A stretch of DNA of 64,000 nucleotides from Asterias amurensis. Taxonomy: Eukaryota > Echinodermata > Asteroidea > Forcipulatida > Asteriidae. A model generated the notes under the pieces. The model saw only the letters and a list, made by a program, of their open reading frames with translations. It did no database searches and had not been told where the DNA came from. Position numbers and translations under genes: made by a program. Shown here one piece after another: positions 1,701-53,962 of the stretch. The stretch is from assembly GCF_032118995.1 (NCBI RefSeq), contig NC_092669.1:186001-250000 (forward strand). The letters run 5' to 3'. How positions within the stretch are numbered: position 1 is the first letter of the stretch; each line of letters opens with the position of its first letter.

Positions 1701-1769
1701 TATGACGTAGTTGTAAGGAATGACAAGTATGTCTAAGATGATGATAACAAGGTCCCTCCGTGAAGATCA

Positions 1770-4700
1770 AGAAAGAAGAGGAAAGTGAAGATCGTTTCAT
1801 CTCGTCTTGCTGCTGGTCTGCCAAGGATACGGGTTGAAGTTCAAGTGAGATTTATTCCGCTCCAGAAGAAAGGTAAAAACTAAAACTTTTCCAATTTAAT
1901 TAAGACAAGTTCAGGCATTTAATATTAATTATTGAGGAGAGGTAATGATGACTATGGTAACACCGTAGAGGAGGGCCTCCATGATAATACCATGATTTTA
2001 CTATGGGCAAAAGTTATGAGAGACAAATCAAAAAACTTGTTCAACAAGACGAGCCAATATTTTCATAATGGAGAAAATTATTAATTTGAGCCTTTACTTT
2101 ATTGTATAGAGAAAAACATTGAAAACGTCTTCATACAAATAAAACCTCCTCATCAATTTTACTTTTAGATTGCTGTTTAAAAAACAATATTAAAATTTTA
2201 AATCTTAAAAACAGTCACGCATTTTTGTTGTATACAATTAATTTTTTAGCAATTCATTATGTCTACAGGCATGAAGGTTTACAAAGTAACATCGCCTATT
2301 TTGTTCATAATAGAAAACATAAAAATAAACTTATTCTCTTTAATTTAATTGATTATTTCGTCCTGGCAACAACTGACGCCAAAAGCTCCACAAGGCCATG
2401 CCATTGCCCCTCTGGTAGTTCAACAGCGAGTATTATTCATCTCTGTAATTTCAACAGCACATGTAACCGTACACATTCTGAAGCCCAAATAAGGGGCTTA
2501 GTTATGCCATAGAACAAGGACCAGCTTGCTATAATGGTTATGCCAACCTTAAAGGGGTTCAACTGTGTTTATATAACTCGTGTTTAACGTTGTCAAAGTC
2601 GCCAACACTTTCTTTAAAAAATTGGTCATTAATTTATGATGGGTTTATATTATGTGCTTTTATTGGGATTATGTACAAAAAGTTGGCTGGATTTTACAAT
2701 AAATTTTGATTAGAAGTTTATTACGAACCTCCCCAAATTCGTCGATCAGTGTGTAGGCATACCTTTGATTTGGTATTTTCTTAAGATTTTACTATTATTT
2801 TGTAACCACAGTTTTACCTGAAGATAATAAAACAACCTCAAGATGGCAGCACCAGAAAGGTAAACATAATAAAATAATTTGTATGAATATTTAAACAAAA
2901 TTAATTATATTATTATGGTATTCAGGATTGGTACATAGATTTGACATAAAAATAATAGACAACCTGTGATAATATATGTATGGGCTTCAACCGTCGACGT
3001 GTTATTCTAATGTCAATTCTGAACTATTTCTTTTGCTCCTATTAGTGAAGAGTCTGAAACCATGGCAGTAATTAAGGTAAGAACAAAAAGGACCTTGAAC
3101 GACTCAAATTCATGATAAATTTACATCGGAACCAAACATTTATTTACATCTAAATCATGCTAGCCCTACATCACGATACTTTATCTAAGACGAACAGTTC
3201 CAAGAAGCGCTTGATATCCCCTCTAAGAAATAAAGCTTTTTGGACAAGAAGTTTTCTGTAAACTTCAAGAAATGAAGTGTGCTTGTTCACAATAAGGAAT
3301 AGTTGAGATAACGTTATAACCCTCCTGTACGTTATCGCAACTAAAATAAGGAACACCTTTTCGTGATAACAAAGAATAAGATTATATTTTGTTTATACCG
3401 ATGTGTTCATAAGCACTGTATAACTGTTCCTTGCTATTGCATAATGTTTAGTGTAGGTTTAAAACAAGTTTATATTATTTGTCCCCGATGCAAAAATAGA
3501 TCCGAGAATAATATGATAATATCAACATAATTGTGAACCTTTTTGAAACCCGCAAACCTTTCTATATCGTATTTCCACCATGCAAAGTTTCAAATCCTAC
3601 TTAACCTTTTGTTTGTTTCTTTTTAATGTTAGGAAAGAGAAGAGAAAAGGAAAGAGGAGCTCAAGATGGAATTAATTGAAGCTCGAGATGAGATTCGTAG
3701 AAAGAGTGAAGAAAAGGCGAAAGAACTTCAAGAACTTCGCGCTAAAAGGGTAACTTTTAAATTACTCAAATCCCCAAAGGAAGTGGATGACATAATGTAG
3801 TGGTAGATAGAACTGTCCACTGTTGATCAAGAAACCGCGCATGGTTGGCAAGAACCGCCGAATGTTATTAACAAAAATCAAGTATCTTCTGCAACATTTT
3901 AACCAAATAAAAATACCCCCTATGATTGGCTGCTTTTGTTTCCAACAAATTCAACACAATGTTTGAATATTTTCGTAACATTGTTAGAAACAGTCCGTTT
4001 ATTTTCATTTTATGTCTTTCCGTATATAGATTTTTCCAACCTCGCTTAGCAAAAACTCTCCATGATGCAATAGAGAGGACGTCCGTATGGACTGTAAAGA
4101 GGGTAAACCTGTTTCAGCCCCAGGAGAAGGTGGCAAAGACCCCTGGACAAAAAAATGGTAGCCCACATCTTGGAGTGCCCTTCAGGCCTTGTGTGTTTCT
4201 GGCGACTTGTAACAAAAAAGCTCAGCGTAATGCCTATATACAACATATTTTAAATTGGTGCCTAATTTTGAAACTGTTATTTTTCTTGTCAGGATGCACG
4301 TCGTGCCCAGCAAGCAGAGGAACAGAAACTACGGGAGCAATACGAAGCAGAGAGACGAGAAAAGGAGAAAGTAGAGAAACAAAAACGGAAGGAGATGTTA
4401 GAGATGAAGAAGAAGGAGAGAGAAGCTAGCATCAAGGCAATGCACAATCCGGATGCTTATCATGCCATCATTGTTGAGGCAAGTGCTGTTTTATTGTTTC
4501 ATCTGCATTTTTCAACGACACAAAAGGGGATCAGATTAAGATCACCAAATAGGATAGCCTCATTGTCTAAATGTGTGCTCATACTAAGAGTCAACGTGTC
4601 AATAAGTAACATTCAATATGATACAAATCTCATATTGGAACCCATTTTTAATTTAAAATGAAGTTTACTTTGTTTTTGACTTTGTTGTAAACAAAAACAG

Positions 4701-7700
4701 GGTATTTTTTTAACTTTCTGTAGAAGGAAGAGCCGAAGAAAAAACCCAAGAAGTCCCAGGAAGAACTTGAGAAAGAGAAAGAGGCAGCGATGAGGGAACG
4801 GATCCAACCTCTATCAATCGGTAAATAAGAAACATGTTTTATTTTCACAACCAGTCAAAACTTGATTTAAGAAAATACAAGTTGTGTGAACAATCTTTAA
4901 AATGTCAAAAATCACCGTCAAACCCGCTCCCTATTACACCTTGTTCTTCAAAACCAAAATCTGAGATCTACAAGAAAGTAAAACTTCGGGGACAATTTGG
5001 TTTTACCCTTACACCGATGTGTGTAAGCATTGTATCCTTAGAATAGGCCGACCTTCCAATTTCTGTGAACTAAAATCAAAGGCATGTACTCGGAGGAATT
5101 CGAACCCACGACCTTCTTTATTGGCCGATTCTTAATCCCTGGGGCAAATTAAACAATCATCTATTAAATTCGTCGACAATGATAACTAAATCTTAAACCA
5201 TTTTTGAAAACCTTTAACCAGTTCAACCGACCTAAACCCGATTACTATAACCGTTTATGCTATTTAGGAGCAAGCACTGCTGAAGAGAAGATTCGTGAGA
5301 TAGCACGCAACCTTCTTCAGAGACTGAGTAACATCTATGCAGACATCTTTGATATGAAATGTCGCAAGAAACGCCAGGTGTACGATGTAAGATATAAGTT
5401 TTAATAATTTAGCGTCAAAATCCGCCTTAAAAAAACGCTCAAGGCGCTATTATTACAGATTAAAATAAGAAAATCAAGGAAGGCAATAAACATACCGAAG
5501 ATATAAAACATTTACATCTATAGTTATTCATTATAAATGTAATATTTTTGGATTTTGATTTCATTTACTTGAACAACATCTATTGGTCAATTGACATCAT
5601 CACCTCAATACATCTTGGTTGCTCCATTATTATATTCCCCGTGTAGGCCTATACAAAATTATGTTTTATATTCAGTGCTAATTTAAGGTGACGCACTCGC
5701 ATTCACAGGCTCTGCATAATGCTTGCAATATTTTACTCTCAAAATGGCATGCAAACCATGCATGCAGACAGTATAAACACGCATGTGACGTCATACGAGG
5801 GGATCAAACGGATCCATTTCAAAAATAAATGGCAAAATCAATCAATGGACATCATTGAGTTATTTGAGGTTTTTTTAATTTTATTTTCAGCATACTGAAC
5901 TGCTTCAACGCATCGCAGATTTAACCAAGGTCAAAGAGTAAGTAGTACTAGCTTGTATTTGTTTCCATAAAATAATTCGTTTTCCTCAATAATTTGTGGC
6001 ATATTTCGTTCATTACAATTTAAATGTTCTTATCGTTTATTTATTTTTTTTTATTCCGCCGCAGGCCACATTCTGCTGAGGCTGCTGGAACGTGAGTACA
6101 CTCAGTGCCAATTGGTCACAACGACTCATTGCCAATTGGTGACAACGACTCAGTGACAATTGGTGACAACGACAAATGACATTTAAAGTACCACAACAAT
6201 TAAAAAACTCTAAGAAAGATAAACAAATAAGAAATCATAATAGTCACGTGACATGGCGAAAGAATGACAGGGACACAAAGAAATGTCAATGTATACTTTC
6301 TTGTTGACGTTCATATTATTTTCATTTCGTTTTTCAGTGTACACAAGTTCAAAGAAGGAGGCGTATTCAAACCTCAGGTAAGAAACCATTCATGAATATT
6401 AATGACAATTTCGCTACATGAAAACTGAAACTGGAAGTACAGCTTCTTTTAACTAAAAACGACAGAGTCCTATCTTGACTTTCATTTTGTTTTGTTGGAT
6501 TCTTAAATCCAGGAGCACGACCATAAGACGAAGATGCAGATGGACGCAGAAGCCGGTTCTATAATGTCTTCCGGTGGGGTCAAAGGTCGATCTGGGATGT
6601 TTGGGGGAGGCTCTGAGAAGAAAACCCCGGTAAGTCACGTGTTGTGTGATGAATAAAAACCAGCAAGAATCTAAGAATGAATGAAGTCCGAAATGATACC
6701 AAACTCTAAAAACTCCCAGGTCAGAATTGACTATGATCGCGGGTCCCATGGGGCCTGACCCATTTAAGGGTCAGTGTGACCCACAGTGCCAAAGAAACGC
6801 AGAAATGGGTCAAACTGATGCGTAATCCAAGTTAACATCCCATTATTATTGTTAAATCGGTTTGGGTCAATCTGACCCAGAAGTGTTTCATGAGACTCTG
6901 ATTCCAAGTCAATTCTGACCCGAGAGGTTTTTAGGGAGCTCAAAATGGCTGTGATTTTGATATTATGTAGGATCAAAGCAAATTGAATCGTGTGTCAACC
7001 AATAACTGTCAGATTTAGTTAAAAGAAAAACTAGTTTTGTGTGACTACATGTAGAATGTGCTGACGTCACAGGCATGACACCCGGCCCCATTAAAAGAAA
7101 GATCTCAAGAGTAAAACATACTGTCTTAAATAATTGCTATACCTGAGTGATATTATGAAGTATTAGATCAATACAGAAGTTGTTAACAATTTAGCCAAAT
7201 AATATTATGTTTATGGCAAACGCAACTCAAATAACTGTCCCGAGTCCGACTTGACCCCAGCAAGGCAGACACGTAAAAAACGAATGCGTTTCCCACTATT
7301 AGTATTATGCTAACACTGTTAATGAAAAAAACAGTTGAATAAAGAGGCATCAAAATGGCTTGAACACACAATAATTAGACCTAAACAAGTAAAAACCCTG
7401 CCATAACACTCGCTTAACAAGCATGTCAAATATTACCCGATTCTTTATTTACAGGAGGATGACGAAGGATAACATTAATGGAGATTCTGAAAGAACTTGA
7501 GCATCAAATGAGGTTTTGGCGCCAAATTAAGTTTGCTTTCCCGCCACCTTGCCTATTGATTATCTGCTGCATGATCGAATAAACCTTAACAGCAGAACGT
7601 TTAAATTAATTTGAAACAACATGTAGATTAGAACCGTGTGTTCAGCTTCTTGGTTGTAATGCTTTAAAAATAAAACTAGAGAGCCATTTTCATTGTCAAA

Positions 7701-8041
7701 CACATCTTTTGATAAGTGTTATTTCGGGGGGAAATATTAGAAGTCTTCACTGTTGCAATACAGCTACAACTTGTATTTTATTTTTATTTTTTTGGGTTGC
7801 TATTTTTAAACAACTTTCTGCAAACTTCCATCTTACTACAGAGAACCATTGAAAGTATTTACCAGATTATGTTAGGATTTTAGAACGCTTGATGACAATT
7901 AAAAGATGAAACTTTCTCAAAATAGTTTGCATTATATTGTCTTGTATCAAAGCTTCAATTGTTAATATTGTGCATTCCTTCGTTTCATCTCCCTCTCCGC
8001 AGGGTTTGGATCGGGCTCAGACTATTGATCTGACCAAGTGA
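1770..8041 (+). CDS. Troponin T (complete, alternative C-termini)
   Basis: Troponin T anchors the troponin complex to tropomyosin on striated-muscle thin filaments. Coding exons: 2843-2859, 3046-3076, 3633-3749, 4293-4478, 4724-4820, 5268-5386, 5891-5937, 6065-6091, 6338-6377, 6513-6629, then 7455-7472 or 8003-8041. A non-coding first exon probably ends at 1872 and splices to 2812. The phases join without a break to give 271 or 278 residues. The first half is a charged helix rich in E, K and R (for example KELQELRAKR), matching the TnT tropomyosin-binding region. A KKKPKKSQEELEKEKE stretch then leads into RIQPLSI and EEKIREIARNLLQRLSNIYA, which aligns with the vertebrate TnT core before the TnI-TnC coiled coil. 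The long acidic N-terminus of vertebrate TnT is missing; only about 11 residues precede the conserved part. AATAAA-like signals lie near 7,577 and 7,669. The gene faces troponin I tail to tail. Confidence 0.9.
4479..4723 (+). other. GC-AG intron in troponin T
   Basis: The donor reads GAG then GCAAGTG, and the acceptor is TTTCTGTAG. Splicing at GC keeps both flanking exons in phase 0 and gives the protein junction IIVE-KEEPKKK. The nearest GT donor, two bases further on, would shift the frame. GCAAGT is the usual strong context for the minor GC-AG class, so the reading is supported by both phase and donor consensus. Confidence 0.8.
5080..5140 (-). repeat. tRNA-derived SINE fragment
   Basis: Read on the minus strand, the segment carries a box B-like GGGTTCGAATTCC within a tRNA-like right half. 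No intact tRNA fold is visible. It lies inside the troponin T intron before the exon at 5268 and is best read as a decayed SINE. Confidence 0.4.
6065..6091 (+). other. 27-base microexon of troponin T
   Basis: The exon lies between CCGCCGCAG and GTGAGTAC and encodes PHSAEAAG with split codons at both ends. It enters and leaves in the same phase, so it can be skipped without a frame change, joining KVK to the next exon through an Asp codon. Troponin T genes in other animals are known for small in-frame cassette exons. Confidence 0.7.
6101..6172 (+). repeat. Short minisatellite, three units of about 28 bp
   Basis: Three diverged copies of a unit built on GCCAATTGGTGACAACGACT run in tandem, starting about 10 bases after the donor of the 27-base troponin T exon. 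Each unit includes the CCAATTGG or ACAATTGG core. Confidence 0.75.
8003..8041 (+). other. Alternative last coding exon of troponin T
   Basis: A strong pyrimidine tract and acceptor (CTCCCTCTCCGCAG) precede an in-phase reading GLDRAQTIDLTK and then TGA. The proximal alternative at 7455-7472 encodes only EDDEG and then TAA. Both follow the exon ending in SEKKTP at 6629 in phase 0. Polyadenylation signals near 7,577 and 7,669 would serve the proximal form, so choice of 3' end and choice of C-terminus are probably coupled. Confidence 0.65.
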
Positions 8042-9489
8042 TTGGCTCAGTAGCAACCAATGGGGTGCTTTGCAGTGCATCACGTGGTATATTGTTTAAG
8101 TTTTACTTTCGAAATTGTGTCGACCAACATGAAAACACAATCAAAGCGTTACTGGACGCCAATTTGCGAATCTTCCGCAAAATTTGAAGTAAAATTCCAT
8201 TATTACGCATCAAACGACAATCAAAGTTTTCAAAATGCAGTCTTGATCTCACTAGACGACAAACAATCTTAACATAAACTCTTTACTTGTTTAAGTTTTT
8301 AAAAACCTTCATCTGTATTGTTAATGTTATTACTGTATTCTAATTTTAGGGCCTCTTCTAACAAGTCAGTAAAAATTCAACAACTGTTCAAGAGGACTTG
8401 AAATGTTCACTCTGTTGTAATTTCCTTGTGATAAAGATGTGAAACAGAAAGGAAACTCTGAAGAATTTAAAGAGGACCGTGGGTTCACATTCTACCTGGT
8501 CCTCGACCGACCATCATTATGTCAGAATACTATACGGAGCTTTAGAAGTACCATCAGACTTGTCTAGATTCTGATATAGTCCGGAATAAGAACTCAGAAC
8601 TCAATTTCACAACAACTTGCTTAGCACAGAAAAGTATTTCTAAAAAGAAGTAGGCTACCAGCATAAATCACAATAAGTTTACATGATTGTTTTGACTGAT
8701 GGTGTCCCACTCATCATTTCTTGCCTAGCAAAGGAGTTCGTCAAGCAGGGCTGAGTTTTTGAACAGCTTTTTGAAATTGCCCACTGACATGTTCCGAACA
8801 AAGTGCCGACATCTAACAAGAAAAATCATTCTCCAAATCAACATCTTATCTTCAAGGCGTAATGTCGTGTCTCCTCATCTTGAGATAATATTTTCAGAAT
8901 CTTGACAGGTCGGAAGGAATTTCCTAAGCTTCGTCTCTAAATGGTTTTCCAAGACTTTTATTCCCGTAACCATTCGAGTCCATGGTGTGTTCGGATTGGT
9001 AGCTTGGTACATAAACATTTTGAGATTTCCCTTGTGGTTTATGACTTGATTTTGACAAAATTTTCTGCAGACTCATGAACAATAATTGGCCTATCAATGT
9101 CTTTTGTGTCTGTGTTGGTATTATAAACATTTTTTAAATGGGGATGTTTGACTACACAATAGGACAATCGGATTGAAATGAACATTAAAATTGTTACGGT
9201 TTGAGGTCGTGTGGTAATTTTTACCCAATAAAAATATTTCAACTGACAAAATGTTTCAAGAGTGCTTCTTTGTTTCTTTGGTAAATTAACACTGTTAATA
9301 GCTCTCAACTATTGAAAGCAAAGCGAATCTAGAAATCAACACCCAAACTTTGTTATGTATACGTCGTGAATTAACAAGGCAAGGCACGCCAATTAATTAT
9401 GTGGATTAAAAATTATTTATTTGACTCACCAAAATGGCTGACCGTGTTTAGTTTGCAAAGTAAAAGGAAAACAACGCAATTTCGAAGCA

Positions 9490-9864
9490 TATAGAGGCAC
9501 TATACACTATCGGTAAAATCACTTAAAATAATTGTTAGCATAAAAACTAACTTGGAGAGCTGTTGAAAGTATTAAAGCATTGTGCGAAACGGCTCTCTCT
9601 GAAGTAACGTGTTTTTTTTTTTTAGTAAGAAGTAATTTTTCACTAAAATATTTCGAGAACTCAGAATTAGATTTTGAGGTTTTGAAATCAAGCATCTGAA
9701 AGCACACAATTTGTGCGACAAGGGTGTTTTTTCTTGCAGCTTCTCGCAACTTCGACGACCGATTGAGCTCAAATTTTCACAGGTTTGTTATTTTATGCAT
9801 ATGTTGAGATACACCAAGTGTAATGACTGGTCTTTGCCAATTACTAATAGTGTTCTGTGTCTTA
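9490..9864. mobile_element. Old TTAA-type MITE copy
   Basis: The ends are diverged inverted copies: the left reads GGCACTATACACTATCGGTA and the right ends near CCAATTACTAATAGTG. The interior shares ACCGATTGAGCTCAAATT and nearby sequence with the elements at 29,415, 36,481 and 52,997. It has no coding capacity. The copy is more diverged than those three, hence probably older. Confidence 0.65.
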
Positions 9865-10059
9865 AAAACACTATTTTAAACCATATTTAAACCGCGCTTT
9901 TCATAGACCAACTCGCCTGATCCATACAACATGCCCTTCAAAGTACACTTCATTATGTTATAAAGTTCATCAAATTCCTAGAATATACAAGAATCGAGTC
10001 GCGTCGTTCACCAAGTGATTGGTTATCACTCTGTGATCAATAAGTTGGGGGTATGGGCG

Positions 10060-10166
10060 TTGGGGTATAGGGGCGTGGGGGGCAGGGGCGTGGGGGGCAG
10101 GGGCGTGGGGGGCAGGGGCGTGGGGGCAGGGGCGTGGGGGCAGGGGCGTGGGGGGCAGGGGCGTGG
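10060..10166 (+). repeat. G-rich minisatellite
   Basis: About seven tandem copies of GGCGTGGGGGGCAGG (15 bp, one G lost in two copies) stand out from AT-rich surroundings. Dense runs of at least three Gs make the plus strand a candidate for G-quadruplex folding. Confidence 0.9.
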
Positions 10167-10536
10167 GGTAATGTTTGGACGCATCCTTCAAAATAACAGA
10201 GACGTAACTAATTCTTTATAGAGTATAAGCTTACTGTTTAATGACCTATTGCTCCATAACGTAAGAACATTACACTATAACATCATTGTGTGTACACATC
10301 AATATCTAGCACTAACAAAACCTTGTTAATAATTCGATTTTCTGTCACTCGGAACATTCCAAACTAGTCCACTCCCTTCGTGATAAACTGTCATCTAAAT
10401 AACGATTTCGGTTCTCACACAATTGTTTTAAAATGTTACAAATAAAAACTTTAAAATAAATAATGACGTCAGAAAGGTTTATAATATTATGCAAGGCTGA
10501 ACCCACCAATCAGAGGGTAGGAGTTAACCACTGCAG

Positions 10537-10778
10537 GGGCCAATTTCATAGAGCTGCTTAAGCAAAAAATTGCTTAAGCACGAAAATAGCTCGCTTGTTT
10601 TACACATGTTACTGGCCAAAATTGTATGCCATATACATTGCTTATGACTAGTATTTAGCTGTTGTTTACTTAGCATAACAATTGAAGGGAGTCTTGGCCG
10701 GTAACCTGATTTTACTAAGCAATGAATTTTTTGCTTAAGCAAATTTTTGTGCTTAAGCAGCTCTATGAAATTGGGCCC
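10537..10778. mobile_element. Foldback MITE with GGGCCAATTTCATAGAGC ends
   Basis: The left end reads GGGCCAATTTCATAGAGCTG and continues through CTTAAGCA; the right end is its near-perfect complement and finishes at TTGGGCCC. The interior is also partly self-complementary around repeated TTGCTTAAGCA. It is non-coding. Diverged relatives occur at 44,683-44,866 and 54,705-54,897. Confidence 0.85.
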
Positions 10779-13700
10779 TGTTATCAACCAATAAAGAGAA
10801 CTTAATAATAATTTATTCAACATAATTGTCCAATCGGGTGTTATTTAGTAATGAATATTCATATTGCATTTTGCCATGAAAGGCACGTTTGCTGGGGGGG
10901 GGGGGGACTTTTGGTTTGTTTCTTTATTTCATTTGTTTCAAAGCGAAACAGAGGAAGGGAATGCCTTGTGTTATTGTTTCATGATGTAGTTTACAAGAGG
11001 CCTTTCCCTCCCCCTACACAAACGAGCAAGGTAAACATTTTCCCCTGCCTCATCCAAAGATGTTGTCTGGGTGTTTAACTTCTCACAGGCGCATGAATTA
11101 AAAATAAATCAATCTGGAGGTTTTCTTATGAAGTGAAAAAATAGGATAACTGATGATCCAACCTTACAGGTAAAATGTCTGCATTTCCTGTAGGTTAATA
11201 TACTAGCACATAAATTAGTAGAGAATCTCATATTTTCATCATTTTGGGGATTAACTTTTAAAAATGAACACAGCAAGTCTGTGTTGTCATGGATTTTCAC
11301 ATCTTGGTACACTAGTAAAAATATATGCCATACAACTTAACACCTTAGTTTTAAAAACTGTTTTCCCAGATGATCTTTTTTTGGGGGGGGGATTTAAAAA
11401 AGAATGTAGTAAAATGAGTAACATTAAACTGTTACTGCAGTCTTCAGTCCATGAAGTTGCAATATTCTATGGGTGTGGCTTACAGTACAACTTTCCACCA
11501 ATCAGAACACTCCAAATGTCATGCATATTCATTATACACATGAATAAAACATAACATGCCCACCATTACAAGTCCAATCTTCGGACTAATATTGCCTACA
11601 ATTAAATGGGAAGGAAAAAAAATCCTATATCTGATAGATGTTCAGTGCATTGAATAACAATTTCTGCCATGATTTGGGGATTCAATTACTTGATCTGAAT
11701 AGACATGGTTCCCTATGACCACAATTAAAAATACCATGCATTAAATCATTTTGTAAAAGGCACCAGCCCAATATGAAACCATGGTTGTTAAACGACCAAT
11801 AGCCTTGTTTATAACAAATTATAACTGCTGTACAATAAGCGTTCCCATCAAGTATGTGAACTACATTCATGCATGCATTCAGACACTATTGGTTTGCAAA
11901 CTCTGTAGAGGTGTCCAGACACAAACAAATGTATATAATGCCCCATGAGATCAGTCCCAAACAAAAAGGCGAGATATTCCCACCATTCTGTCAACCACTA
12001 CTAATACTAGTAGTGTTTTATAACGCTACATTCAAATTCGAAGTGTGGACTTCGGAACAAGAGTCCACATCATGTAGGTGGTTGAAACACTTTGTGGACC
12101 TACCCTCATCCACACAGTGTTATTTACAGTGTTGAGGAATAGGATTTCCCTTTAGTGTATAGTACAAAGAAGTACCCACAGAGTGCATGCAACACAGAGT
12201 GCATGCAACACAGAGTGCATGCATGCACAATGCCCAATTAACATACCATAGGAAAAGACTATTAATGCCTGAATTTAAAAAGAAATAGATTAAACACGTA
12301 TTATTCTATTGAACGTAAAACCATTCAATGGAATTTGCAAAATTATAAATTCACAAAAAATTAGATGAAAGAATAATATTTGAAACAAAGGCTGCAGTAA
12401 ACGGAAAATATATGACCACAAATGAAAGCATTGGTTACTGTTTTGCTAGCCTACACGACTACCCTTTATATGTTTATGTATACACTGTACAAACAACTAT
12501 CACAGACTACACAAGGCTTAGGGTAAAGGTCAACATATCAAAGTCAAATGTTTCTGAAACATCATCTATTTCAGCAGCAACTTGTTTTAAAAAGACTAAA
12601 GAATACTGGTATTTCTGGAGCCCAAAAGCCTTAAATCTACCAGCATATTGAGGTTGAATCAGTTAATGTACAAATATTGAAGACAAGTCCAAGGACCAAG
12701 CCATGATAGGAGCAACTTGCCCAATTAAGAATATTGCCCAGATGAGAACATTCTTCTCAACTATGAGAAAATTAAGTACAATTTGAAACTTTCATGGTGG
12801 AAGTAGATAACTAAAAGAGGTTGGAGGTAACACCATGTGAGTACAGTATCTATTTGGAGAAAAGTATTGATTCCTAATCAAGAAAGCCTTCTTCTATGAT
12901 GCATTGATTTTGCAGCCTTGTGATGTGTGGGGGTGGGGCAACAGGTAGTTGGGCTAGGGTGGGGAGCGAGGTAGTTCTTAAGGAGTGCCAACTGTCCTAC
13001 TTTGAAGTGTGATCCACATCTATTTTGTCCCCCTACTTTACTTCTCCCAAGCTCCACTCCAGAATAACCCCATCCCAGTCAAACCATTCGCCCAATGACA
13101 AAGAAAAAAACAATACGTAAGATGTCACGCAGTGATCATCACAATGAACTCAATCGATAGCAGATCGATCGTAGGCGCAGTGGAAGATAAGGCACATGGA
13201 GTTTTTTTGACCTTTGAAAGTCCGCTGGAAGTTACGGTCATCACAATCATACAAGTCAAGATTTAAAAAAAAAAAATACTTTAAAAATGGTACTCTGTCA
13301 TCTAGAGATGGGTTTTTGTTTTCTTTTTTACAAATAAAGACAAATAAATGCAGTGGAAGACTTCTTTATATGCACATTTTGAAAACACAGTAAACTAGTT
13401 ATTATGTATAATCGGTAATAAAAAAAAGGCTATAAATAACATGAGGGTCGCACATAGTAACAGTGAGCTGTATGAATTGCATTTTGTTTAAAATGTCATC
13501 AGTTAACACACTACATTATTCTAATACACTGATAAATATTCATAAGTCATGAATATGTAAAACTGCTAATATATTCTACAATTAATAACTAAACCTGTAC
13601 ACACCTATTAATAAACCAACATATAAAAGGACAACCCACTCTTACAGGGGGGTATATGAATATTCATTTATAAATAGTGACTTTCAGTAAGTTATTTAAT

Positions 13701-14350
13701 GCCAAAAATAGCATTCTTTGAAATTGTGACCATGGCAACACGATTTAAAAAAGAGAGAGAAAAATCTACATAAAAGACTGGAAGTAACGAATGGATTCTT
13801 CCTCCTCCAGGTTTGGGGGGGGGGGAGGGGGTCTACGGCAAGCTTTGAATTGAATCAATTATCTACTAAGCTACTGTAGAGTCTGGCTTGTAACAATGTG
13901 AAGTACAGCACACTCCTGTAAAAACAATCAAAACACAAAAACATTCATTCATTTTATCATACAGTTAAATATTTTGTGCATTTATCAGAATTCATCAAAT
14001 AAAATTACAACAAATAATTTTAAAGATTGCATGGTATTTTCAAACAAAATTCAAAAACATGGTGTAGTTTTATGTACTTTTTGAAAATGCTGCACAGTGG
14101 AAAACAAAGTTCATGTGTTTTCATACGATGAACAAATAAATTGAATTGAATTGAATTGAACGATGATGAGTAGGAACAATGCAGTAACAAGTAAACAATC
14201 TCATTGTTGCAATTTGGTTTAAAACTTTTGTTGTTGTTGATTGGTTTCATACTGTCAATGTTTTCTTTATAAACAAAATCCTGCTCATAATACAACTGGA
14301 CTTTTATGGGATTTCCCCCGAGGTTTTTCATTTTAAGATATTGTTCTTAC

Positions 14351-14390
14351 CTGTTTACGTTCTAACTGCACACAAATTGAGAAATCAGTC
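14351..14390 (-). other. Splice donor after the troponin I stop codon
   Basis: Forty bases past the TAA the minus strand reads AAACAG and then GTAAGAAC, an excellent donor. Either the 3' untranslated region contains an intron or the exon can splice onward in another isoform. I found no clear acceptor or polyadenylation signal downstream, so the true 3' end of the gene is open. Confidence 0.5.
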
Positions 14391-23300: not shown

Positions 23301-26300
23301 CTGCTGTCTCTTCTCAGACAGAGTTCAGGAACATAAAATATTAACTCAGTGAATTATTTGTTTATAAACCAGAACAAAATGTGTCAGTTGGTACTACGCA
23401 AAATGCAGGCCTCAAAATATCCGTAGACACTCACAGCAATTGCTGTGGTGCGCCCTGTGCTTTTGCTGTGGTGCCCTTTGCAAGGTTCCAATACAAACTT
23501 ACAGTTTCCTCATAGAAATGCCCCTTACCAGAGGAAGATGCTGTGCCCCTTCAAGAGGGGATTTCAAGGCCTGAAAATGTCAGCATGTGCATCCATGGGG
23601 AGAACTTTGGTCCAGAAGTCTCTAAAACAAATTCATCCTAAACAGACACTCAAAACATAACAGACAAAGCTTGACTGTTTTTCATAATACTTGGGGACAA
23701 GTTTCGGACCTGATTATGAAATTCTTATGGGCAAGGCACTCTTCCTTTTGTGTAGAGCACCTTTAAATCCCAGCAGTTCAAGGTGCACCAAGGACTACAT
23801 TGCCTCGCTCCAGTCAGGCCTGTATTTAAAACCACATGGGAAGAAAGTCTTGGGTTCATCACTACTGAGTTGACAGCAAGAGATAAAAAAGACATCAATA
23901 AGCTGACAGCAAGAGAGAACCAAAAGACATCACTGAGTTGGCAAGGATATACAGGAAGCAATTAAAATACTTGAAATAGGAGGAGATAAATGAGAATACA
24001 TTAATAGCAAAGACAGGACACTGTAAAGCTACAAGTACAAGTGTTGTCAAGTTCTAAACTTTTAAATCTGGTTAAGTGGTAGGTACATATTGGAGGCTAA
24101 AACCATAGGTAAACTAATCCTTAGACAGATCAGCGGGGATTTAATGTAGTTTGGAATGTCAAAAAGGGTGGTGCAATATTTCAAGTTACATCATTAAAAA
24201 CACATTACATAGAGTCCTGAGAACACCACAGTGAAACTCAGAGATGGACAATAATTTTTTTCTAAAACTGAGGCTTCGACTTAGGTTCCTCATCACAGGC
24301 TTCGTCAGTTAAACCTACTTTGAAATATGTGCTTGCGAAGTTGCAGTATGTAGCTTTAGATATGGTTGACAAACCCTAACCTACAACCGAACTATGGTTT
24401 CAATAAACCCTAGTAAGAGGACCGAACAAGACCTAGAAAAGACATGAGTAAATAAACATCAATTTTTTTCAAATAGTACATGTACATGGTGAAAGGTCTT
24501 CCTTTCTGTATTGTGAGAGAGTTCAAGTTTGTAGAATGTCAACCATTCTAGAGTTTTGATTACATAATATACCCTCGAACTCTGTTATAATTCTAAAGTG
24601 TTGTGCTCCATAAATCAGTTATAGTTTACATTATCACTGACCCTCAACATTATACACAATGCTGATTGGAGTGTTTCTAGTTTGTTGAGCTGGTCCCTTA
24701 ACGTCCTTTAACCTTTTGTAGAGACATGACATACCTTACATACCAAGACTGCCAGTCAGTTCATAGCTAAGGAGGCAAATTGAATGGGGGTGCCCCAGTC
24801 ACTCATGGTTGATACTTGTGTATATAAAACACTGTCTTGTATACAAAACCCAGGATGCAAGAATAAGTGTTTTACTGAGGTGTATACAAAGATCATTTCC
24901 ACTGTTTAACCATGGAGGTAGAATTCCCATGGCTCCATGGTTAATCAGACTGAAAAATACATAAGTGTCCATTGTTTGAGGCTGAAACAAATTTAGGGCT
25001 TAAATTTTTTTCTAGAAGGGCACAGCAATTTTCCTCTGTTATATGGGCACTGCTAACTTTGGAAAATTTAAAATTGTATTGGAACTTTGCAAAGGGCACC
25101 ACAGCAAAAACATAGGGCACCACGGCAATTGCTGTGGGTGCCATGGGTTATTTTGAAGCCTGCAAATTCCACATACTTTTATTCAGATTCTCTCAAATCA
25201 ATTGACATTACTCTCTTCCATAATACAATTTTATGAACTGACCACAGCTTTCTTCTTTTTTAAGCCACAAAAGAAGATTATCAGAGATTTTGTGGCTTTG
25301 GTTGGGTTGAAACATCAGGCTACTATTAACTATTTTGTTGCATTTTTAACATAGGTAATTTTGGTTGGTCAGCAGTTTCCAATATCTAATTCTATTTTCT
25401 CTTTAAGATCTTTCACCTTGTAATTGTTACAAATATGAACAGTAAACTAACCAGAGATAGAAACAAAGTCAAGAAAGTGATATTTTATACTCAGAAAACC
25501 AAACTTGATCGGCCTTTTACAAAGAGTAGTTTGAACCAATTAAATGGTTCACTGCAACTGAGTAAACCAAGATTCTTTGTTGGATTTATTTTCATTATTG
25601 ATACCTCAGGGGGAGAGTCATTGCCGACAAAAAAGTATGAAACTAGGATCCAAGTGTTTTGAGGTATGTTGAAATGTTCCACCTTTTGGTAATCCCTGGA
25701 GTTTATATTTTATAGAGTTTTTAAAAACAGTGTCCTCAGCACTAGAAAAGTAGATCAAAGAGTAGTACTTGTTTTTATGTGGACAAAAAGACAGTTGATT
25801 TTTTTCACCAGACCATTTGAATAAGTCTGAATTCAGATAAAAATCTGAAATATTCTAGTCGCGATGATCGTAGGTCATAGAGGAAAATGAAGAGTTATGA
25901 CCATCGCAATCGCAACTAGAAATATCCAATCCCTGTACATTTCTCTAAATCATGAACTTCATGAACTTGTTACATTCGATTTATCATCCAGCCTGGATGA
26001 CTCCAAGCGTCTCTTTACGGTTGGTGTAAACTTCAACATTTCCATCAAATATTAGACACACCCTGTCCGGTGTATTGAAAAGGGAATCGGGTTTCCACAA
26101 TAGGTTTGAGTATGTTTCTAAGTGATCGGATAAAACCATGTCACAATTGACCTTAAGGTCAGAGATATAATTCATGGAGTTTCTCACTGTATCGTTCCAC
26201 TCAGTGCAAACACAGCAATATGGTTCAAGTCAATAGACTGTTTTGTTATCATTTTGAAATTCAGACGAACAAACGCCAGAAGTTCACTGTCCAAAACTCT

Positions 26301-29300
26301 AAAAACTGTCCATTAACTGCTAAATTTTGCAAACCACAAAACTGATTTTTCTCTTTTCATCATGATCTCACCTTTTACTTTATAAAACAATAAAACATAA
26401 TTTATAACAAACAAAAGACACGTTTGATTTTGCTCGAAATTTGGTTCAAATTTATGTCTAAAATGGCAGGCCTTGAAATAACCCAAGTATACATTAAATA
26501 AATAGCACTCTACTCAGGTGGAAGTAAAGTATGGCTGACAAAAAGTCAGAAATTCAACAACAACAAATCAATAAAGAAAAATACCAAAAAGTTCATGGGT
26601 TAAATTTAATCCAAATCTAAAGCGTAAAAACTCAGTCATTTTATGGTACGGGTCAAGAAATTACAGGGTGCAATTTGGATAAAAATTTGATAACAGGTTC
26701 TGACATGTGTGTGGGAACAGAAATACTGTAAACAGGTAACTGCACTTACTGACTCCAAGCTAGTCCTACCCTTGATTGATCTGTGGGTTACTTATTGACA
26801 GGCAGTCATCATAGTGTGTTAGCTAGAGGGGTGTCTGGGTGTCTTTTTCACACCCTGTTTTAAATTTTGACACCCTGTTTTATCTGTCATTCACATATGA
26901 TGTAAATTGTAAGTGAACACTTTCGACACCTCAGTTTTTAAATGTCCAGCCAATTTGGATCCTTTTCAGATCTGGAATTTCGTCTTTAAAAGAGAAAGCC
27001 ATTTTCATTTTTCAGAGCACATTTCCATTGGAAAAGAATTTCATCTTTAAAAGAGAAAGCCATCTTCATTTTTTAGAGCACATTTCCATTGGAAAAATAT
27101 TTCATCTTTAAAAGAGAAAGCCATTTTCATTTTTTAGAGCACATTTCCATTGGAAAAGAATTTCATCTTTAAAAAAAAAAGCCATTTTCATTTTTTAGAG
27201 CACAATTCCATTGGAAAAGAATTTCATCTTTAAAATAGAAAGCCATTTTCATTTTTCAGAGCGCATTTCCATTGGAAAAGAATTTCATCTTTAAAAGAGA
27301 AAGCCATTTTCATTTTTTAGAGCACATTTCCATTGGAAAAATATTTCATCTTTAAAAGAGAAAGCCATTTTCATTTTTAGAGCACATTTCCATTGGAAAA
27401 GAATTTCATCTTTAAAAGAGAAAGCCATTTTTATTTTTTAGAGCACATTTCCATTGGAAAAGAATTTCATCTTTAAAAGAGAAAGCCATTTTCATTTTTC
27501 AGAGCACATTTCCATTGGAAAAGAATTTCATCTTTAAAAGAGAAAGCCATTTTCATTTTTTAGAGCACATTTCCATCGGAAAAGAATTTCATCTTTAAAA
27601 GAGAAAGCCATTTTCATTTTTTAGAGCACATTTCCATTGGAAAAAAAATTTCATCTTTAAAAGAGAAAGCCATTTTAATTTTTCAGAGCGCATTTCCATT
27701 GGAAAAGAATTTCATCTTTAAAAGAGAAAGCCATTTTCCTTTTTTCAGAGCGCATTTCCATTGGAAAAGAATTTCATCTTTAAAAGAGAAAGCCATTTTC
27801 ATTTTTAGAGCACATTTCCATTGGAAAAGAATTTCATCTTTAAAAGAGAAAGCCATTTTCATTTTTTAGAGCACAATTCCATTGGAAAAGAATTTCATCT
27901 TTAAAAGAGAAAGCCATTTTCATTTTTCAGAGCGCATTTCCATTGGAAAAGAATTTCATCTTTAAAAGAGAAAGCCATTTTCATTTTTCAGAGCGCATTT
28001 CCATTGGAAAAGAATTTCATCTTTAAAAGAGAAAGCCATTTTCATTTTTAGAGCACATTTCCATTGGAAAAGAATTTCATCTTTAAAAGAGAAAGCCATT
28101 TTCATTTTTCAGAGCGCATTTCCATTGGAAAAGAATTTCATCTTTAAAAGAGAAAGCCATTTTCATTTTTCAGAGCGCATTTCCATTGGAAAACCTTTAA
28201 GTCAAAGGGAAATTTTTGAAGAGGCACCAAGGCCAAGAACAGGGGCAACAGAGGCCATTGTCTCTGCTTAGGCCTGTCATGGGCCTGCATGTAATTCTAG
28301 GCCAGTGATCCTAGCAAAAACCTTGTAGCCAGCTGTTACCAGTTTACTTTCTGATAACATAATTATAAATACCCAAGACAGTTTAAATCCATTCTAATTG
28401 ACTGCAAGGATATCACATCATAGTGCAATGATGGAACGCATGGTATAGACATGGTTGGTAAAAACTATTCAAACACATGCTAGTCAGTTGGCACGCCAGC
28501 TTACGCGGGTGCTAATTTACAAGTAACGCAATCAATACACAGTGGTAGTGCTTACTACTCAATGCATAATCTATGAAAAATGTGAGCCAATACCCTCAAC
28601 TGTTGCTAGTGTCATAATGCAATTGACCGTCAATGAAACAGATTCCATCTATAAAACGGAAAGGATTTACAGATTTTCTTAATAAATTTTTCAACAAAAA
28701 GGGCATTTTTAAAAGAGTAGTGACTCGGTCTTAAATGGCCGTTTAAAATCTTGCAGGGTGGCTGCGCACTAAAAGGACTTTCCCTTCGACCCATTCCATA
28801 TATCGAATGGCCACAACCCTACCTGTTTTAAAGTCTGTATAAAAGTCGGTCGCCCGCTCTTTCAATCCATTTACATCTCCTCATTTCTTGGACACCAAGG
28901 AAGGGGTTTAAACTTAAGCAGAATTTTGAGTAAGTTGACTTGAATTGAATGTCAAGCAAATCTCAGATCAAAATGGCAGTTTACTAATACCAATTCCCTT
29001 TAGAAAGAACCATGCAGAGAGGTTTTCACCATCAATACATTTTCCATGGAACTCTCTCAACCTTCGCCCCCACCTCAAGCAAACTGTCGAAAGTGCTTTG
29101 AAATCCATTTCTCTACAAAGACAAGACTGTGTAGCCTTAGGCAGTGCATTGTAAGACATTCATGACACAAAATGTAAATTTGTACAACTTTACTGTAATG
29201 TTCAGCATTTACTCACTGCTACAGCCCTAAATGGTCAATCACGATTTCCGTGTAGTTGATATAAAGTACACGCGTATGGACTGGTAAAAAAAGTTAACGA

Positions 29301-32300
29301 ACTTGTGAAATGAGAAAGTAACTGGTTATTCTCCAGCAAGGTCAGTTACTTTTATTCACAGGCATCTAACTGCAGTCTGTCACAAAAAAAACAAGTGTCA
29401 GGAACAACTGAACTTTAAAGCCATTGGACACTTTCGGTACAGAATTTTTTTTTTTAAGTTCACAGATTTACAACAGGGTTTACAGAAGGTGATGGTGAAA
29501 GACTTCTCTTGAAATATTATTCCATGAAATGCTTTACTTTTTGAAGAAAACATTAAAACAATTATCAATTCTTGATCTCGAGAATTACAGATTTATTTTA
29601 AACACATGTCATGACACGGCGAAACGCATGGAAACAAGGATGGGTTATCCAGTTATTTTCTCCCGACTCCGATGACCGATTGAGGCTTAGTTTTCACAGG
29701 TTTGTTATTTTATATAGAAGTTGTGAATACACAAAGTGTGGGCCTTGGACAATACTGTTTACCGAAAGTGTCCAATGGCTTTAATGAAATGGCACAGCTG
29801 AGAAACCCAAAACGATGAAATCAACTGAATATTTGCTTGACTGTATTTATTATTTTACAGTAATTTAGGCCAACAAGCAAATACAGTCAAAATTTAACTA
29901 GTCATATCAAGAGTCCTTGCACAAAACTCTCCCACAGTAAATCAGTTTTTAAAGTCACAAAGCGTATCCAGTAAATTGTTCCCAACAAAAAGCACGATTC
30001 ATTCCACTCTGCTGAGTAATTTTCCACTTCACTGATCACATTTCGGGAATTTCTTAGATAATATTGTCTATACACAACTCAAAAGAGCAAAAGTACAATG
30101 TGAGTCAAGGTTTAGTACTAAAATTTACAACCAGGAAACACTGAACTGAAGATTCTGGTTCATTCTCAGCGAGATAGGAGAGGAATTTTTTTAAATTTAC
30201 TTAAAAATATATCTACAACATATTTTGGTGGGACTTAACAAATCAGTCTATTTAGAATTACCAGAAATAATTTGACATTTGTTTCAATTTAATGTGACAA
30301 CATTTTATATATTGCTACAGTGTAAGTGTACCCACATTTATATTTAAAATATAATAGGAAAACTAAATGGTCACGAGTGGCAAGATGACAATAATGAATT
30401 CTAGTACTTTGAGAATATTTGTTTACTTTTTAAACTAGGAAAGTTATCAATACTTCCGACATTCAATCCTTTCAAAAAACATAAATTCTTCTTTTGAGAA
30501 TCTTTTCTTAAAAAAAATAAGGAATTGCCGAGTTGATTCACGAGTTAAAAATATTGAACTTTCCGTCGATTTTGACTCATCATACAAACCCACAGGAATG
30601 TTTAACTTGTGAAACTCTTGCACATATTTGTTAAAGAGACTATAAATAAGTCTATTATATTATTCAATTTACCTCAATATTTTCCCAGCCCTATTCTTTT
30701 CCAGACTGCTTTATTTTCCCAATAAATTCCAACTTTATAAGTAACCATTGTGTTTATTGTTTAGTTCAGAGAGTGCATGTGGTACAATGTACATTACATT
30801 ATACACTTTCAACACAACCTTTTATGGCTAGCCTATAAAGCCCACCCCTAGACAAGTGCCATTGACTCCAGGCAATGGATCATACCATTACACTCACAGG
30901 TAAGAACTATGGCAAGATAAAGAGGGTGAAGGTCATTTAGGAGTGAGCCTAGTTCTAAAAAAAATTACCACAACATAGGATTCCTAGCTATTCAAACATT
31001 GCAACTTAATATATCTAAAAAGTCAATTTTTCTTGTGATTTATTATTTGATAAATCTTAACATAATTTTGAACTAAAAGTTTGCAATTGTTTTTTCTAGT
31101 GTCGAAAGTTCTTACGGTGATGGAAATTAAAGTTCATTATAACAAAGTTCATTGCAGGTATGACGAATGAACTTTCAGTTTCTATAAATTTAACCTATTT
31201 ATAAACGCACAAAAATTAATGTGGAAAAGGGCATTAAATCGCAAATCAACTATAAATTCATCTTTATCAGTTACAAAATTTAAAATAGCTTTTTAATGAA
31301 GTTCAATTTCAGCCACAACCAGTAGATAAGTTACTGGTAAACTTGTTTTAGAAATAAAAACTGTACACAACAGCAAAATAAAAGAACAGGTAATGATTTG
31401 TTTATTTAACCCTGACAAACTATGGAGTTAGGCAAGGAATGAGGTAGTTGCGAGGTAGTTCCAGAGGAGGGTTACGGCGGCTGTCGGGAGGAGGGTTACG
31501 TAATCGCAACTAGAAATGATGAGGCTAGTGTATGGTCTCAATCCTCCAATATCATCTTGTCACTTCACACCAACTTGTATGAACCAAGGAGGTAGAACCT
31601 CCATATATGAACTAAGATGATTGGGATGCTTTGCCCAGTCCTTTATTTTCCTTCACTATGGAAATTGGCTACTGAAAAATTTGACGACGCTCAGCGCAAT
31701 TTCATACTACTAAGTATTCTATTTCTAAGCTGGTGTGGTACTCGTTATAAAAAGTTTACTCTACCAATTCAACCAATTCAATGGATAGGTTTACCTTTTA
31801 CCTTTTCTTTTTCTGATTTGTGATAAAATGGCAGGGAAATTGTTTGATGAGGGAAATAAAGTCTGAAATTCATAAATTTCCCGCATTATTACATAATCGT
31901 TTTCCACTCAGTCAGAACTCATCATGTACTTCACTACCAATAAACAAAATTAAACATAAGATTAAAAAACACCAAACCATAGTTTTAATTAATTGCTTAT
32001 AAAATCCCAACTAATTCTGTGGAGCAATGAAGGGTATCAACCCAATACAAAATACTTATGACAGTTCCTTACCCCCACATTTTATACAATCCAAAATAAC
32101 CATCCCTATTGCAAAATGAAACGTTCACAAGTAACACAAACAGACCACACCACGAATAAAAAAAAAAGACAAATTACAACTCGACATGTTGCCTTAAAAT
32201 GGCACCCAACGAGTTTCTAGAGCAGTATACCATGGGCATGATTGGTAGGACAAACCAAAGCTAATCTACTTAAGTTTTTCTACAATGGTAGTCCCTTCAT

Positions 32301-32640
32301 TGCCTAATGAACAATTAATGGAATAAATTACTCGCGAGAAAATCATAATAAATCAATGTCATCAAACTTCCCAATCGAGTGTACAGTACTTCGACATCGT
32401 AAACTGGTTTCGTGTACAGTCTTGACTAAACTTCGAAGTTTTTAACAGTTTAATTTCACATTTAGCAGTCATGACAGCTTCTAAGAATTCACCAATAACA
32501 TCTGAAAGTTATGAACTAAACACTGAAGGATTTTGAGGAAAAAAGCTTACCTGGGAATGATCGAAAATGGAGAATAAATCCCGTCCTAGTTTTTTAGCGA
32601 TGTTCCCTTTTGACACCACACACCGAGGACAGCGAGTTCT
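14351..32640 (-). CDS. Troponin I with long N-terminal extension
   Basis: Troponin I is the inhibitory subunit of the thin-filament calcium switch. Exons in reading order: non-coding exon ending 32551; coding 22116-22049, 20726-20634, 19309-19126, 18476-18405, 17765-17676, 17438-17331, 16852-16784, 15871-15758, 15511-15290, 15139-15096, 14876-14822, 14441-14391 (stop TAA). Lengths sum to 1,170 bases, giving 389 residues without a break. Family signature: RDLKALCERLHEQL, ESDKYDLEVEV and IDELNRRAMEIKGRF match the TnT-binding coiled coil, and VKPTLKKVEKK is the inhibitory peptide. The last exon, KSDFRESLKKHEVSN, resembles the basic TnI tail. The first roughly 230 residues are an extension: RxxRRR motifs, a PEPEPE stretch, then about 110 residues rich in E, Q, R and K that look like a single alpha-helix. 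Typical vertebrate TnI is about 180-210 residues. The start codon follows directly on a splice acceptor. Fine splice choices in the 5' half rest on phase alone. Confidence 0.87.
14683..14866. other. Poly-G run beside troponin I exon 12
   Basis: An uninterrupted G run of about 12 lies near 14,731-14,742 in the intron just past exon 12. The exon itself can read through its donor (CAG then GTTTGA), adding Val and a stop, so intron retention would give a protein lacking the last 16 residues. Confidence 0.4.
18040..18375 (+). repeat. Minisatellite built on GGTTGCTATGGATAG
   Basis: About nine imperfect units alternate GGTAACTATGGATAG and TGGTTGCTATGGATTG (about 17 bp, or 34 bp as a pair). The array lies in the troponin I intron and ends only some 30 bases from the donor of exon 18476-18405. 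Confidence 0.85.
18484..18665 (+). repeat. Degenerate (ATGACA)n simple repeat
   Basis: Runs of ATGACA are perfect near 18,490-18,515 and decay rightward with interspersed AATGACA units. The repeat begins a few bases upstream, in transcript terms, of the troponin I exon acceptor at 18476. A short TGTCAT run of the same motif in opposite orientation occurs near 59,773. Confidence 0.7.
18855..19036. mobile_element. Inverted-repeat element in troponin I intron
   Basis: The ends AGTGGTGGTTCTGAGAAGAA and TTCTTCTCAGAACCACC are inverted copies. The interior resembles the sequences at 16,970-17,270, 40,895-41,060, 50,090-50,215 and 59,165-59,320, which share a CTCTGATCATCTTCAGGAG-like core. It is non-coding and diverged. 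Confidence 0.6.
20451..20578. mobile_element. Short foldback MITE
   Basis: GCTGTGTCTGAATTAATGGC at the left is mirrored by GCCACTTAATTCAGACATGGC-like sequence at the right. The interior is built on alternating GGCTATAGCC and TGGCTATGGC, so most of the 128 bases can fold into a hairpin. It lies just beyond the troponin I exon at 20634-20726. Confidence 0.7.
20815..20960 (+). repeat. tRNA-derived SINE (Leu/Ser-like head)
   Basis: A tRNA-like head with box A GGCCGAGTGGTCTAG and box B GGGTTCGAACCTC is closed by complementary GTCATGAC-type ends. It continues into the tail CTTGAGGAAGGCACTTAACC, a form common to marine-animal SINEs. A decayed minus-strand relative is visible near 50,560-50,690. Confidence 0.75.
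22295..22438. mobile_element. TTAA-flanked MITE, AGCCCGGTT family
   Basis: TTAA, then GCCCGGTTTCAGTTC, opens the element, and GAAGTATGAGCCAGGC then TTAA closes it. Inverted ends between TTAA duplicates are typical of piggyBac-type non-autonomous elements. The same family occurs at 42,201-42,502. Confidence 0.75.
23440..25165. repeat. Inverted pair of GGCACCACAGCA-type repeats
   Basis: The block near 23,440-23,560 (GCAATTGCTGTGGTGC and following) recurs in opposite orientation at about 24,985-25,165, and a shorter piece lies at 22,195-22,245. All share TTTGCAAAGTTCCAATAC-like sequence. No inverted ends or target duplications are clear, so the class is unassigned. Confidence 0.55.
25847..25927. 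mobile_element. Small inverted-repeat element
   Basis: TTCTAGTCGCGATGATCG at the left faces CATCGCAATCGCAACTAGAA at the right, in inverted orientation. A related right end, TAATCGCAACTAGAAAT, recurs at 31,502. The element is non-coding and short. Confidence 0.5.
26974..28193. repeat. Satellite array, about 20 units of 61 bp
   Basis: The unit begins GAATTTCATCTTTAAAAGAG and continues with AAAGCCATTTTCATTTTT, then AGAGCACATTTCCATTGG and AAAA. Copies differ mainly at one place, TTTTAGAGCAC versus TTTCAGAGCGC, plus one- or two-base length changes. The two variants are interleaved, which suggests repeated unequal exchange. Each unit carries CCATTGG, an inverted CCAAT box. The array sits wholly inside troponin I intron 1. 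Confidence 0.97.
29415..29784. mobile_element. TTAA-flanked MITE, full copy
   Basis: TTAA, then AGCCATTGGACACTTTCGGT, opens the element, and ACCGAAAGTGTCCAATGGCT then TTAA closes it. The inverted ends are perfect over about 20 bases. The 362-bp interior has no open frame of note. It is highly similar along its whole length to 52,997-53,370, so the family was active recently relative to the older copies at 9,490 and 36,481. Confidence 0.9.
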
Positions 32641-36104: not shown

Positions 36105-43959
<7,855 letters not shown>

Positions 43960-53862: not shown

Positions 53863-53874
53863 GATACGAGTTCT

Positions 53875-53962
53875 CCTTCGAGCCGGATTCGAACCAGCGA
53901 CCTATGGATGTCGGGCATTTATCGTCTACAGTCCACCGCTCTACCAACTGAGCTATCGAAGG
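53875..53962 (-). tRNA. tRNA-Tyr(GUA) with intron
   Basis: On the minus strand CCTTCGA pairs with TCGAAGG at the acceptor. Box A is TAGCTCAGTTGG and box B is GGTTCGAATCC. The anticodon stem GTGGA pairs with TCCAT, with GTA as anticodon. About 16 bases (ACGATAAATGCCCGAC) interrupt the gene one base after the anticodon, the standard place for the eukaryotic tRNA-Tyr intron. The mature tRNA would be 72 bases before CCA. A run of eight T follows on the transcribed strand (53,862-53,855) as terminator. It looks functional. Confidence 0.95.

Follow-up and report, generated by a model that had tools for sequence, protein, structure and literature searches.

Genes for troponin I (TnI) and troponin T (TnT) lie within kilobases of each other in vertebrates, and in the available part of one survey LAD1, LSP1 or CALD1 separates TNNI from TNNT in three of the four gnathostome pairs (Joyce et al., 2022, PMC9825255). 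In the same account, the pairs of human and lamprey, like the TNNT genes of amphioxus, are assigned to a single proto-vertebrate chromosome. The linkage was known in vertebrates, but in the two invertebrate chordates of that study the genes are unlinked, which left its age undecided. With a linked pair in an echinoderm, an earlier origin can be put to the test. Such a pair lies in the window, the whole stretch of 64,000 nucleotides analysed here (C22:186001-250000, contig NC_092669.1), which comes from the sea star Asterias amurensis. The pair belongs to a three-gene cluster not far from one end of the smallest chromosome. An earlier note, made from the letters of the window, had described neighbouring TnT and TnI genes in a probable echinoderm, rightly as to the source; the third gene of the troponin family, TnT-LIM, lies outside the window and was therefore absent from it.

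Troponins of related animals have been described in several settings. Sea urchin TnI is needed for larval swallowing, has a long N-terminal extension and is without the switch that binds troponin C (TnC), according to the available text of Yaguchi et al. (2017, PMC5341096). Ambulacrarians have TnT-like genes and no TnC, and echinoderm muscle is generally smooth-like, in the parts available of Inoue and Satoh (2018, PMC5888912). The TnT genes of that survey are, like those of the sea star, divergent orthologues in several copies (three in Saccoglossus, four in Ptychodera). A troponin-I-like protein is listed in the accessible portion of a proteomic study of starfish coelomic epithelium (PMC9630195). 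In their available parts, the sea urchin paper holds no discussion of TnI-TnT linkage, and the ambulacrarian survey holds no mention of genomic positions or of a LIM-bearing form and tabulates no TnI for Saccoglossus. The literature searched, with partial coverage, yielded no report of echinoderm TnI-TnT linkage or of a LIM-bearing TnT. As far as that literature goes, the troponin gene families are known and a cluster with a TnT-LIM member is new; TnT-LIM is the more novel part of the locus.

Layout of the cluster and its two genes in the window

The cluster is ordered TnT-LIM (minus strand), TnT (plus) and TnI (minus), with a coding span of 28.0 kb at 180-208 kb from the chromosome end of C22 (13,426,355 bases). 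Judging by its repeated reading frames, the start of C22 appears to be about 10 kb of telomere-like repeat. TnT-LIM and TnT stand head to head with 3111 bp from ATG to ATG, the TnT-LIM coding start falling 0.25 kb left of the window. TnT and TnI stand tail to tail with 6918 bp between their stops, an adjacency of the kind that characterizes vertebrate TNNI-TNNT pairs. The distance of about 6.3 kb between coding ends in the earlier note fits the 6398 bp to an alternative TnI stop, and its remark that nothing recognisable lies between the genes also holds: the nine open reading frames (ORFs) of at least 80 aa in the interval have no Pfam match, shorter ORFs being outside the test, and an Rfam scan of the whole window finds nothing there.

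Both genes are complete in open frames on the strands where the earlier note had put them. The TnT splice model, built by hand, runs from ATG 2843 to stop 7472 in 11 coding exons (271 aa). Nine of its ten introns are GT-AG and one, with a GC donor after exon 4, is GC-AG; the exon at 6065-6091 (27 nt) is skippable in frame. Among solved structures the best match is cardiac TnT (residues 4-207, 6.5e-11), with TnI trailing at 5.9e-4, and it spans about 200 residues that take in the tropomyosin-binding helix and the coiled coil. Although TnT stays below the curated cut-off of the troponin profile PF00992 (26.2 bits), the name is retained because of this match.

TnI, likewise modelled by hand, extends from ATG 22116 to stop 14391 on the minus strand in 12 coding exons (389 aa), with all 11 introns GT-AG. 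It belongs to PF00992 by its C-terminal part (1.1e-21; 77.9 bits against the cut-off of 26.2), and the best solved match of its core is cardiac TnI (1.8e-15; TnT trails at 1.8e-3). The actin-binding inhibitory peptide reads GRFVKPTLKKV, its counterpart in the alignment with cardiac TnI being GKFKRPTLRRV. Candidate alternative 3' exons are predicted to give another C-terminus and a protein of 392 aa, and in neither C-terminus is a TnC-binding switch segment seen by eye after the inhibitory peptide. Since the switch is also missing from sea urchin TnI in the available text of Yaguchi et al. (PMC5341096), the gene is taken to be of echinoderm type. It further resembles TnI of that urchin, Hemicentrotus pulcherrimus, in its long, Glu/Arg-rich N-terminal extension, its conserved TnT-binding helix and its inhibitory peptide, and differs in length (389 aa against at least 430 aa) and in its possible alternative C-terminus. 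The extension was also considered as a caldesmon-like region, a candidate rejected for want of a caldesmon profile match. A 61-bp unit repeated 20 times with 95% match occupies window 26975-28193, downstream of the presumed first exon of TnI and ahead of its first coding exon.

TnT-LIM and the descent of the three genes

TnT-LIM was found by following a weak TnT match (E = 0.185) at C22:182750-182884, 3 kb left of the window. Its splice model occupies C22:185751-180154 on the minus strand, 250 to 5847 bases left of the first window base, with 16 exons, 15 introns (all GT-AG) and a single open frame of 450 aa. The predicted protein runs from a caldesmon-like helix through a troponin core to a LIM domain at the C-terminus. 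The LIM domain is found by Pfam at residues 382-433 (3.1e-8; PF00412, 34.2 bits against 22.9), all eight zinc ligands occur with LIM spacing, and the nearest solved LIM domain is that of EPLIN (LIMA1 type, 1.9e-16). EPLIN is not known to have a troponin core.

The caldesmon-like helix is a likeness short of family membership. Pfam Caldesmon (PF02029) matches residues 83-195 at 4.3e-5, stopping at profile position 342 of 498, and scanned alone the region reaches 2.2e-7; the scores, 22.9 bits for the whole protein and 30.5 bits for the region, lie below the cut-off of 50. A coiled-coil troponin core and a LIM domain also set TnT-LIM apart from caldesmon. Charged helices readily resemble one another, and nine controls were scanned for this reason. 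None of them matched the profile: a 199-residue solved stretch of cardiac TnT, the sea star TnT helix, part of the sea star TnI extension and six shuffles of residues 83-195, which are few. The likeness is therefore not one of composition alone, and it was not seen in the other troponin helices scanned.

By alignment and gene structure, TnT-LIM is clearly a TnT paralogue, the sister of the neighbouring TnT. Their cores are identical at 56 of 137 residues and score 229, against 33.8 +- 6.1 for shuffles (0 of 500 as high). TnT exons 7-10 are colinear with TnT-LIM exons 11-14 and have equal end phases up to the point where the troponin part stops, and the C-terminal motif GGVxGRxxMF is common to both. 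The TnI core is linked to the TnT-LIM core by a score of 73 against 36.7 +- 7.0, reached by one of 500 shuffles. In the coiled coil of all three genes a phase-0 intron is followed by an exon that ends in phase 2 (44 nt in TnT-LIM, 47 nt in TnT, 44 nt in TnI), and this pattern is in register in the alignments. Because the three coiled coils have this pattern in common, the cluster is best read as an old tandem duplication with later divergence.

The beginnings of TnI and TnT-LIM add a second likeness. The first coding exons of both start with DERARRREERRR, 12 residues identical in a row. For the first 24 residues of the two proteins the score is 78, whereas the rest of TnI reaches no more than 57, the rest of TnT-LIM 52 and TnT 43; for the first 60 it is 79 against 45.7 +- 6.8 (0 of 2000 shuffles). 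The 12 identical codons agree at 26 of 36 bases and differ at ten, and the common beginning is therefore no fresh copy.

Several results weigh against so simple a descent. TnI and TnT compared directly are only weakly alike (identity at 17 of 75 residues, with a score that 6 of 500 shuffles attain), and intron positions upstream of the common pattern differ among the three cores. The first coding exon ends in phase 2 not only in TnI and TnT-LIM but also in TnT, which is without the motif. TnT scores 22.1 bits (2e-4) as a whole protein and 25.2 bits (2.2e-5) as its C-terminal part, both under the PF00992 cut-off. The troponin match of TnT-LIM (residues 213-298, 8.9e-5) is below it in the whole protein and just above it, at 26.4 bits, when the core is scanned alone, and its preference among solved structures for TnT (5.1e-5, 26.1 bits) over the best TnI (5.6e-4, 22.7 bits) is narrow.

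Copy number was assessed across 491,506,623 bases in 23 contigs, with matches read exon by exon; one contig, of 16,427 bases, would be the size of a mitochondrial genome. The assembly description, as far as available, gives 22 chromosomes, the smallest of 13.43 Mb, and a largest scaffold of 38,009,675 (PMC10625585). Queries with PF00992, with the core of TnI and with TnT brought up no TnI or ordinary TnT beyond those of the cluster, the one off-locus match (E = 3.69 on C7) being at chance level. The TnT-LIM protein gives 21 matches, of which 12 fall in its own gene and the other nine all concern the LIM part. PF00992 alone recovers one TnI exon and misses TnT and TnT-LIM; searched in this way, exon by exon, a divergent further troponin copy could go undetected. 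A genome-wide caldesmon search gave nothing at E up to 10, and, being made exon by exon with no control, shows little.

Age of the linkage and rival explanations

The earlier note had held that the pair carries the vertebrate linkage back to the deuterostome ancestor, with a change of orientation since. That the pair is old is supported by the intron-exon pattern and by the neighbours PLEKHA4-7 and RUVBL2; its identity with the vertebrate linkage is no more than plausible, given the unlinked genes of amphioxus and tunicate, the orientation and four markers on C7. Both genes of a vertebrate TNNI-TNNT pair have the same orientation, whereas the sea star TnT and TnI are convergent. Simple conserved macrosynteny, the first hypothesis, was rejected: TMEM9, the MyoD family, PPP1R12 and TEAD, markers picked for their places near human troponin genes, all have their over-cut-off matches on C7 and none on C22, with weaker matches below cut-off on C6, C7, C15, C16 and C17. 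The cluster resembles the vertebrate pairs in the closeness of TnI and TnT and in its caldesmon-related sequence (LAD1, LSP1 or CALD1 there, TnT-LIM here; PMC9825255, available part). It differs in its third gene, which flanks the pair and combines a troponin core with a LIM domain, and in a chromosome context that agrees in part only.

Other genes of C22 point towards the human troponin regions. A PLEKHA4-7 gene lies at C22:103-134 kb, its seven best solved matches being PLEKHA5, 6, 7 and 4, and RUVBL2 lies at C22:225-229 kb (84 bits against 53 for RUVBL1). The human PLEKHA4-7 genes are at 19q13, 12p12, 1q32 and 11p15, regions of the vertebrate troponin loci, and the human relatives of PLEKHA4-7 and RUVBL2 share chromosome regions with the human troponin genes. 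All 11 glycogen synthase matches are on C22, 5 Mb beyond the cluster, and one of three Got1 loci is likewise on C22 (the others on C14 and C18); both count for less because they were chosen after the C7 result and after the C22 neighbours had been read. The macrosynteny picture is mixed, neither establishing nor disproving a common origin of the linkage: genes of two sea star chromosomes seem to be combined in the human troponin regions, and descent of these regions from two old chromosomes is a possible way to reconcile the C7 and C22 markers. The available part of Simakov et al. (2020, PMC7269912) gives two options for CLGI and CLGQ, a joining that preceded the first duplication or independent fusions that followed it. 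A TnI-TnT linkage in the deuterostome ancestor is plausible, and the troponin cluster may be older than the vertebrates.

Alternatively, the genes might have been brought together later, within the echinoderm or the sea star lineage, for instance by translocation to a chromosome end, with the vertebrate likeness convergent. The orientation unlike that of vertebrates, the four marker families on C7 and the position near a chromosome end with its telomere-like repeat (C22:1-10 kb) fit such a history. So does the distance between TNNI and TNNT in amphioxus and in the tunicate Ciona (PMC9825255, section 8, as available), which likewise tells against an inherited linkage. A secondary meeting would, however, require two sister families to land by chance no more than 7 kb apart in a genome of 491.5 Mb, which is unlikely, and it leaves aside the intron-exon pattern and the beginnings held in common. 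PLEKHA4-7, RUVBL2 and glycogen synthase, moreover, tie C22 to the same human regions. On balance, a secondary meeting is rather unlikely, though it must be taken seriously.

Two further alternatives concern the reconstruction itself. A misjoined assembly would make the adjacency spurious, but the assembly combines HiFi and Hi-C data with a contig N50 of 8.05 Mb (PMC10625585, as available) and C22:1-250000 is free of N, so that an artefact of this kind is hardly credible. TnT-LIM, joined by a predicted splice model only, could be a TnT paralogue merged with a separate downstream LIM gene: a 423-bp intron precedes the LIM exons, and a short exon closes the sister gene TnT at the corresponding position. 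The junction of exons 14 and 15 is nevertheless in phase 0 with GT-AG sites and keeps the 450-aa frame open, no in-frame ATG occurs from the stop upstream of exon 15 to the LIM zinc ligands, and the LIM domain has its full set of eight ligands; two merged genes are thus improbable.

A compact three-gene cluster, together with the duplication, linkage and mechanism proposed here, is jointly the best explanation and is held as probable, some way from certain. Tandem duplication, in part inverted, would have built up the cluster, and the linkage of TnI and TnT would predate the split of echinoderms and vertebrates, with a local inversion since. A bolder extension has an ancestral deuterostome cluster of TnI, TnT and a TnT-derived third gene, kept as TnT-LIM in sea stars and remodelled in vertebrates into the caldesmon/LSP1/LAD1 family, whose place is still between TNNI and TNNT; this is a doubtful proposal. 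If it were true, caldesmon, a thin-filament regulator of smooth muscle, would be a runaway troponin T. TnT-LIM may form a link from troponin T, which regulates striated thin filaments, to caldesmon, which regulates smooth ones, and it occurs in animals with muscle described as mostly smooth and with relatives that reportedly have no TnC.

Calcium control and other features of the region

TnI and TnT would pair through the coiled coil, and the TnI inhibitory peptide would hold tropomyosin-actin off. TnT-LIM probably has the role of a second anchoring subunit, either in smooth muscle or where actin is attached, and may resemble caldesmon in its action. Tropomyosin and TnI may be bound through the helix and the coiled coil of TnT-LIM, while the LIM domain may tie the complex to other actin-bound partners. 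The human TnC query gives 28 matches at E up to 0.001 in the whole genome. All nine central-linker exons read are of calmodulin type, a tenth piece (L041) belonging to another EF-hand protein. No TnC-type linker is among these nine, and at least two more linker matches (C3:908955, C16:3099698) are unread, which leaves TnC absence unproven and is a point against a TnC-free mechanism. Since TnI is without the switch and every EF-hand linker read is of calmodulin type, the calcium signal probably bypasses classical TnC and takes effect by way of calmodulin, myosin or some other route. The calmodulin-type genes form two dense groups, at C1:18448017-18487249 and C3:880649-920795, with several genes within 40 kb in each.

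Table 1. Features of the cluster within the window (window positions; minus-strand exons in order of transcription).
Feature	Position	Strand	Basis
TnT coding exons	2843-2859, 3046-3076, 3633-3749, 4293-4478, 4724-4820, 5268-5386, 5891-5937, 6065-6091, 6338-6377, 6513-6629, 7455-7472	+	splice model, open frame
Possible non-coding first exon of TnT (candidate)	1770..1872	+	donor after 1872, by eye; start from earlier note
TnI coding exons	22116-22049, 20726-20634, 19309-19126, 18476-18405, 17765-17676, 17438-17331, 16852-16784, 15871-15758, 15511-15290, 15139-15096, 14876-14822, 14441-14391	-	splice model, open frame
Alternative 3' exons of TnI (candidate)	14365-14351 + 13915-13871 (13871..14365)	-	GT-AG sites, open frame
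Possible non-coding first exon of TnI (candidate)	32551..32640	-	donor site only; start from earlier note
TnT-TnI interval, no gene recognised	7473..13870		Pfam on ORFs and Rfam, both empty
Presumed divergent promoter region of TnT-LIM and TnT	755..1769		position only
Window edge adjoining TnT-LIM, presumed 5' flank only	1..754	-	TnT-LIM coding exons all outside window

The divergent region between TnT-LIM and TnT contains a 32-bp tandem repeat of 3.6 copies (window 1193-1307). To the right of the cluster, the RUVBL2 exons with the TIP49 domain occupy window 38736-42752 on the minus strand. A short-chain dehydrogenase gene follows at window 49835-51789 (plus strand), its 5' part matched by Pfam at 1.3e-6 and 51403-51789 without a match, and the sole Rfam match of the window, a tRNA gene, lies at 53874-53962 (minus strand), outside the TnT-TnI interval. 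Another neighbour of the cluster on C22 is presumably a DBX homeobox gene, its profile showing a homeodomain only. Left of the window, the forkhead gene at C22:84258-85964, of which an exon part was scanned and has no Pfam match, is one that we take to be FoxQ2-like. Also left of the window, C22:137936-147437 consists of about 10 kb of imperfect repeats; reading frames hundreds of codons long run through them, such as one of 499 aa at 144728-146224, and they carry a motif similar to FSSEKFTLFRAKSSQGYSLVHFF.

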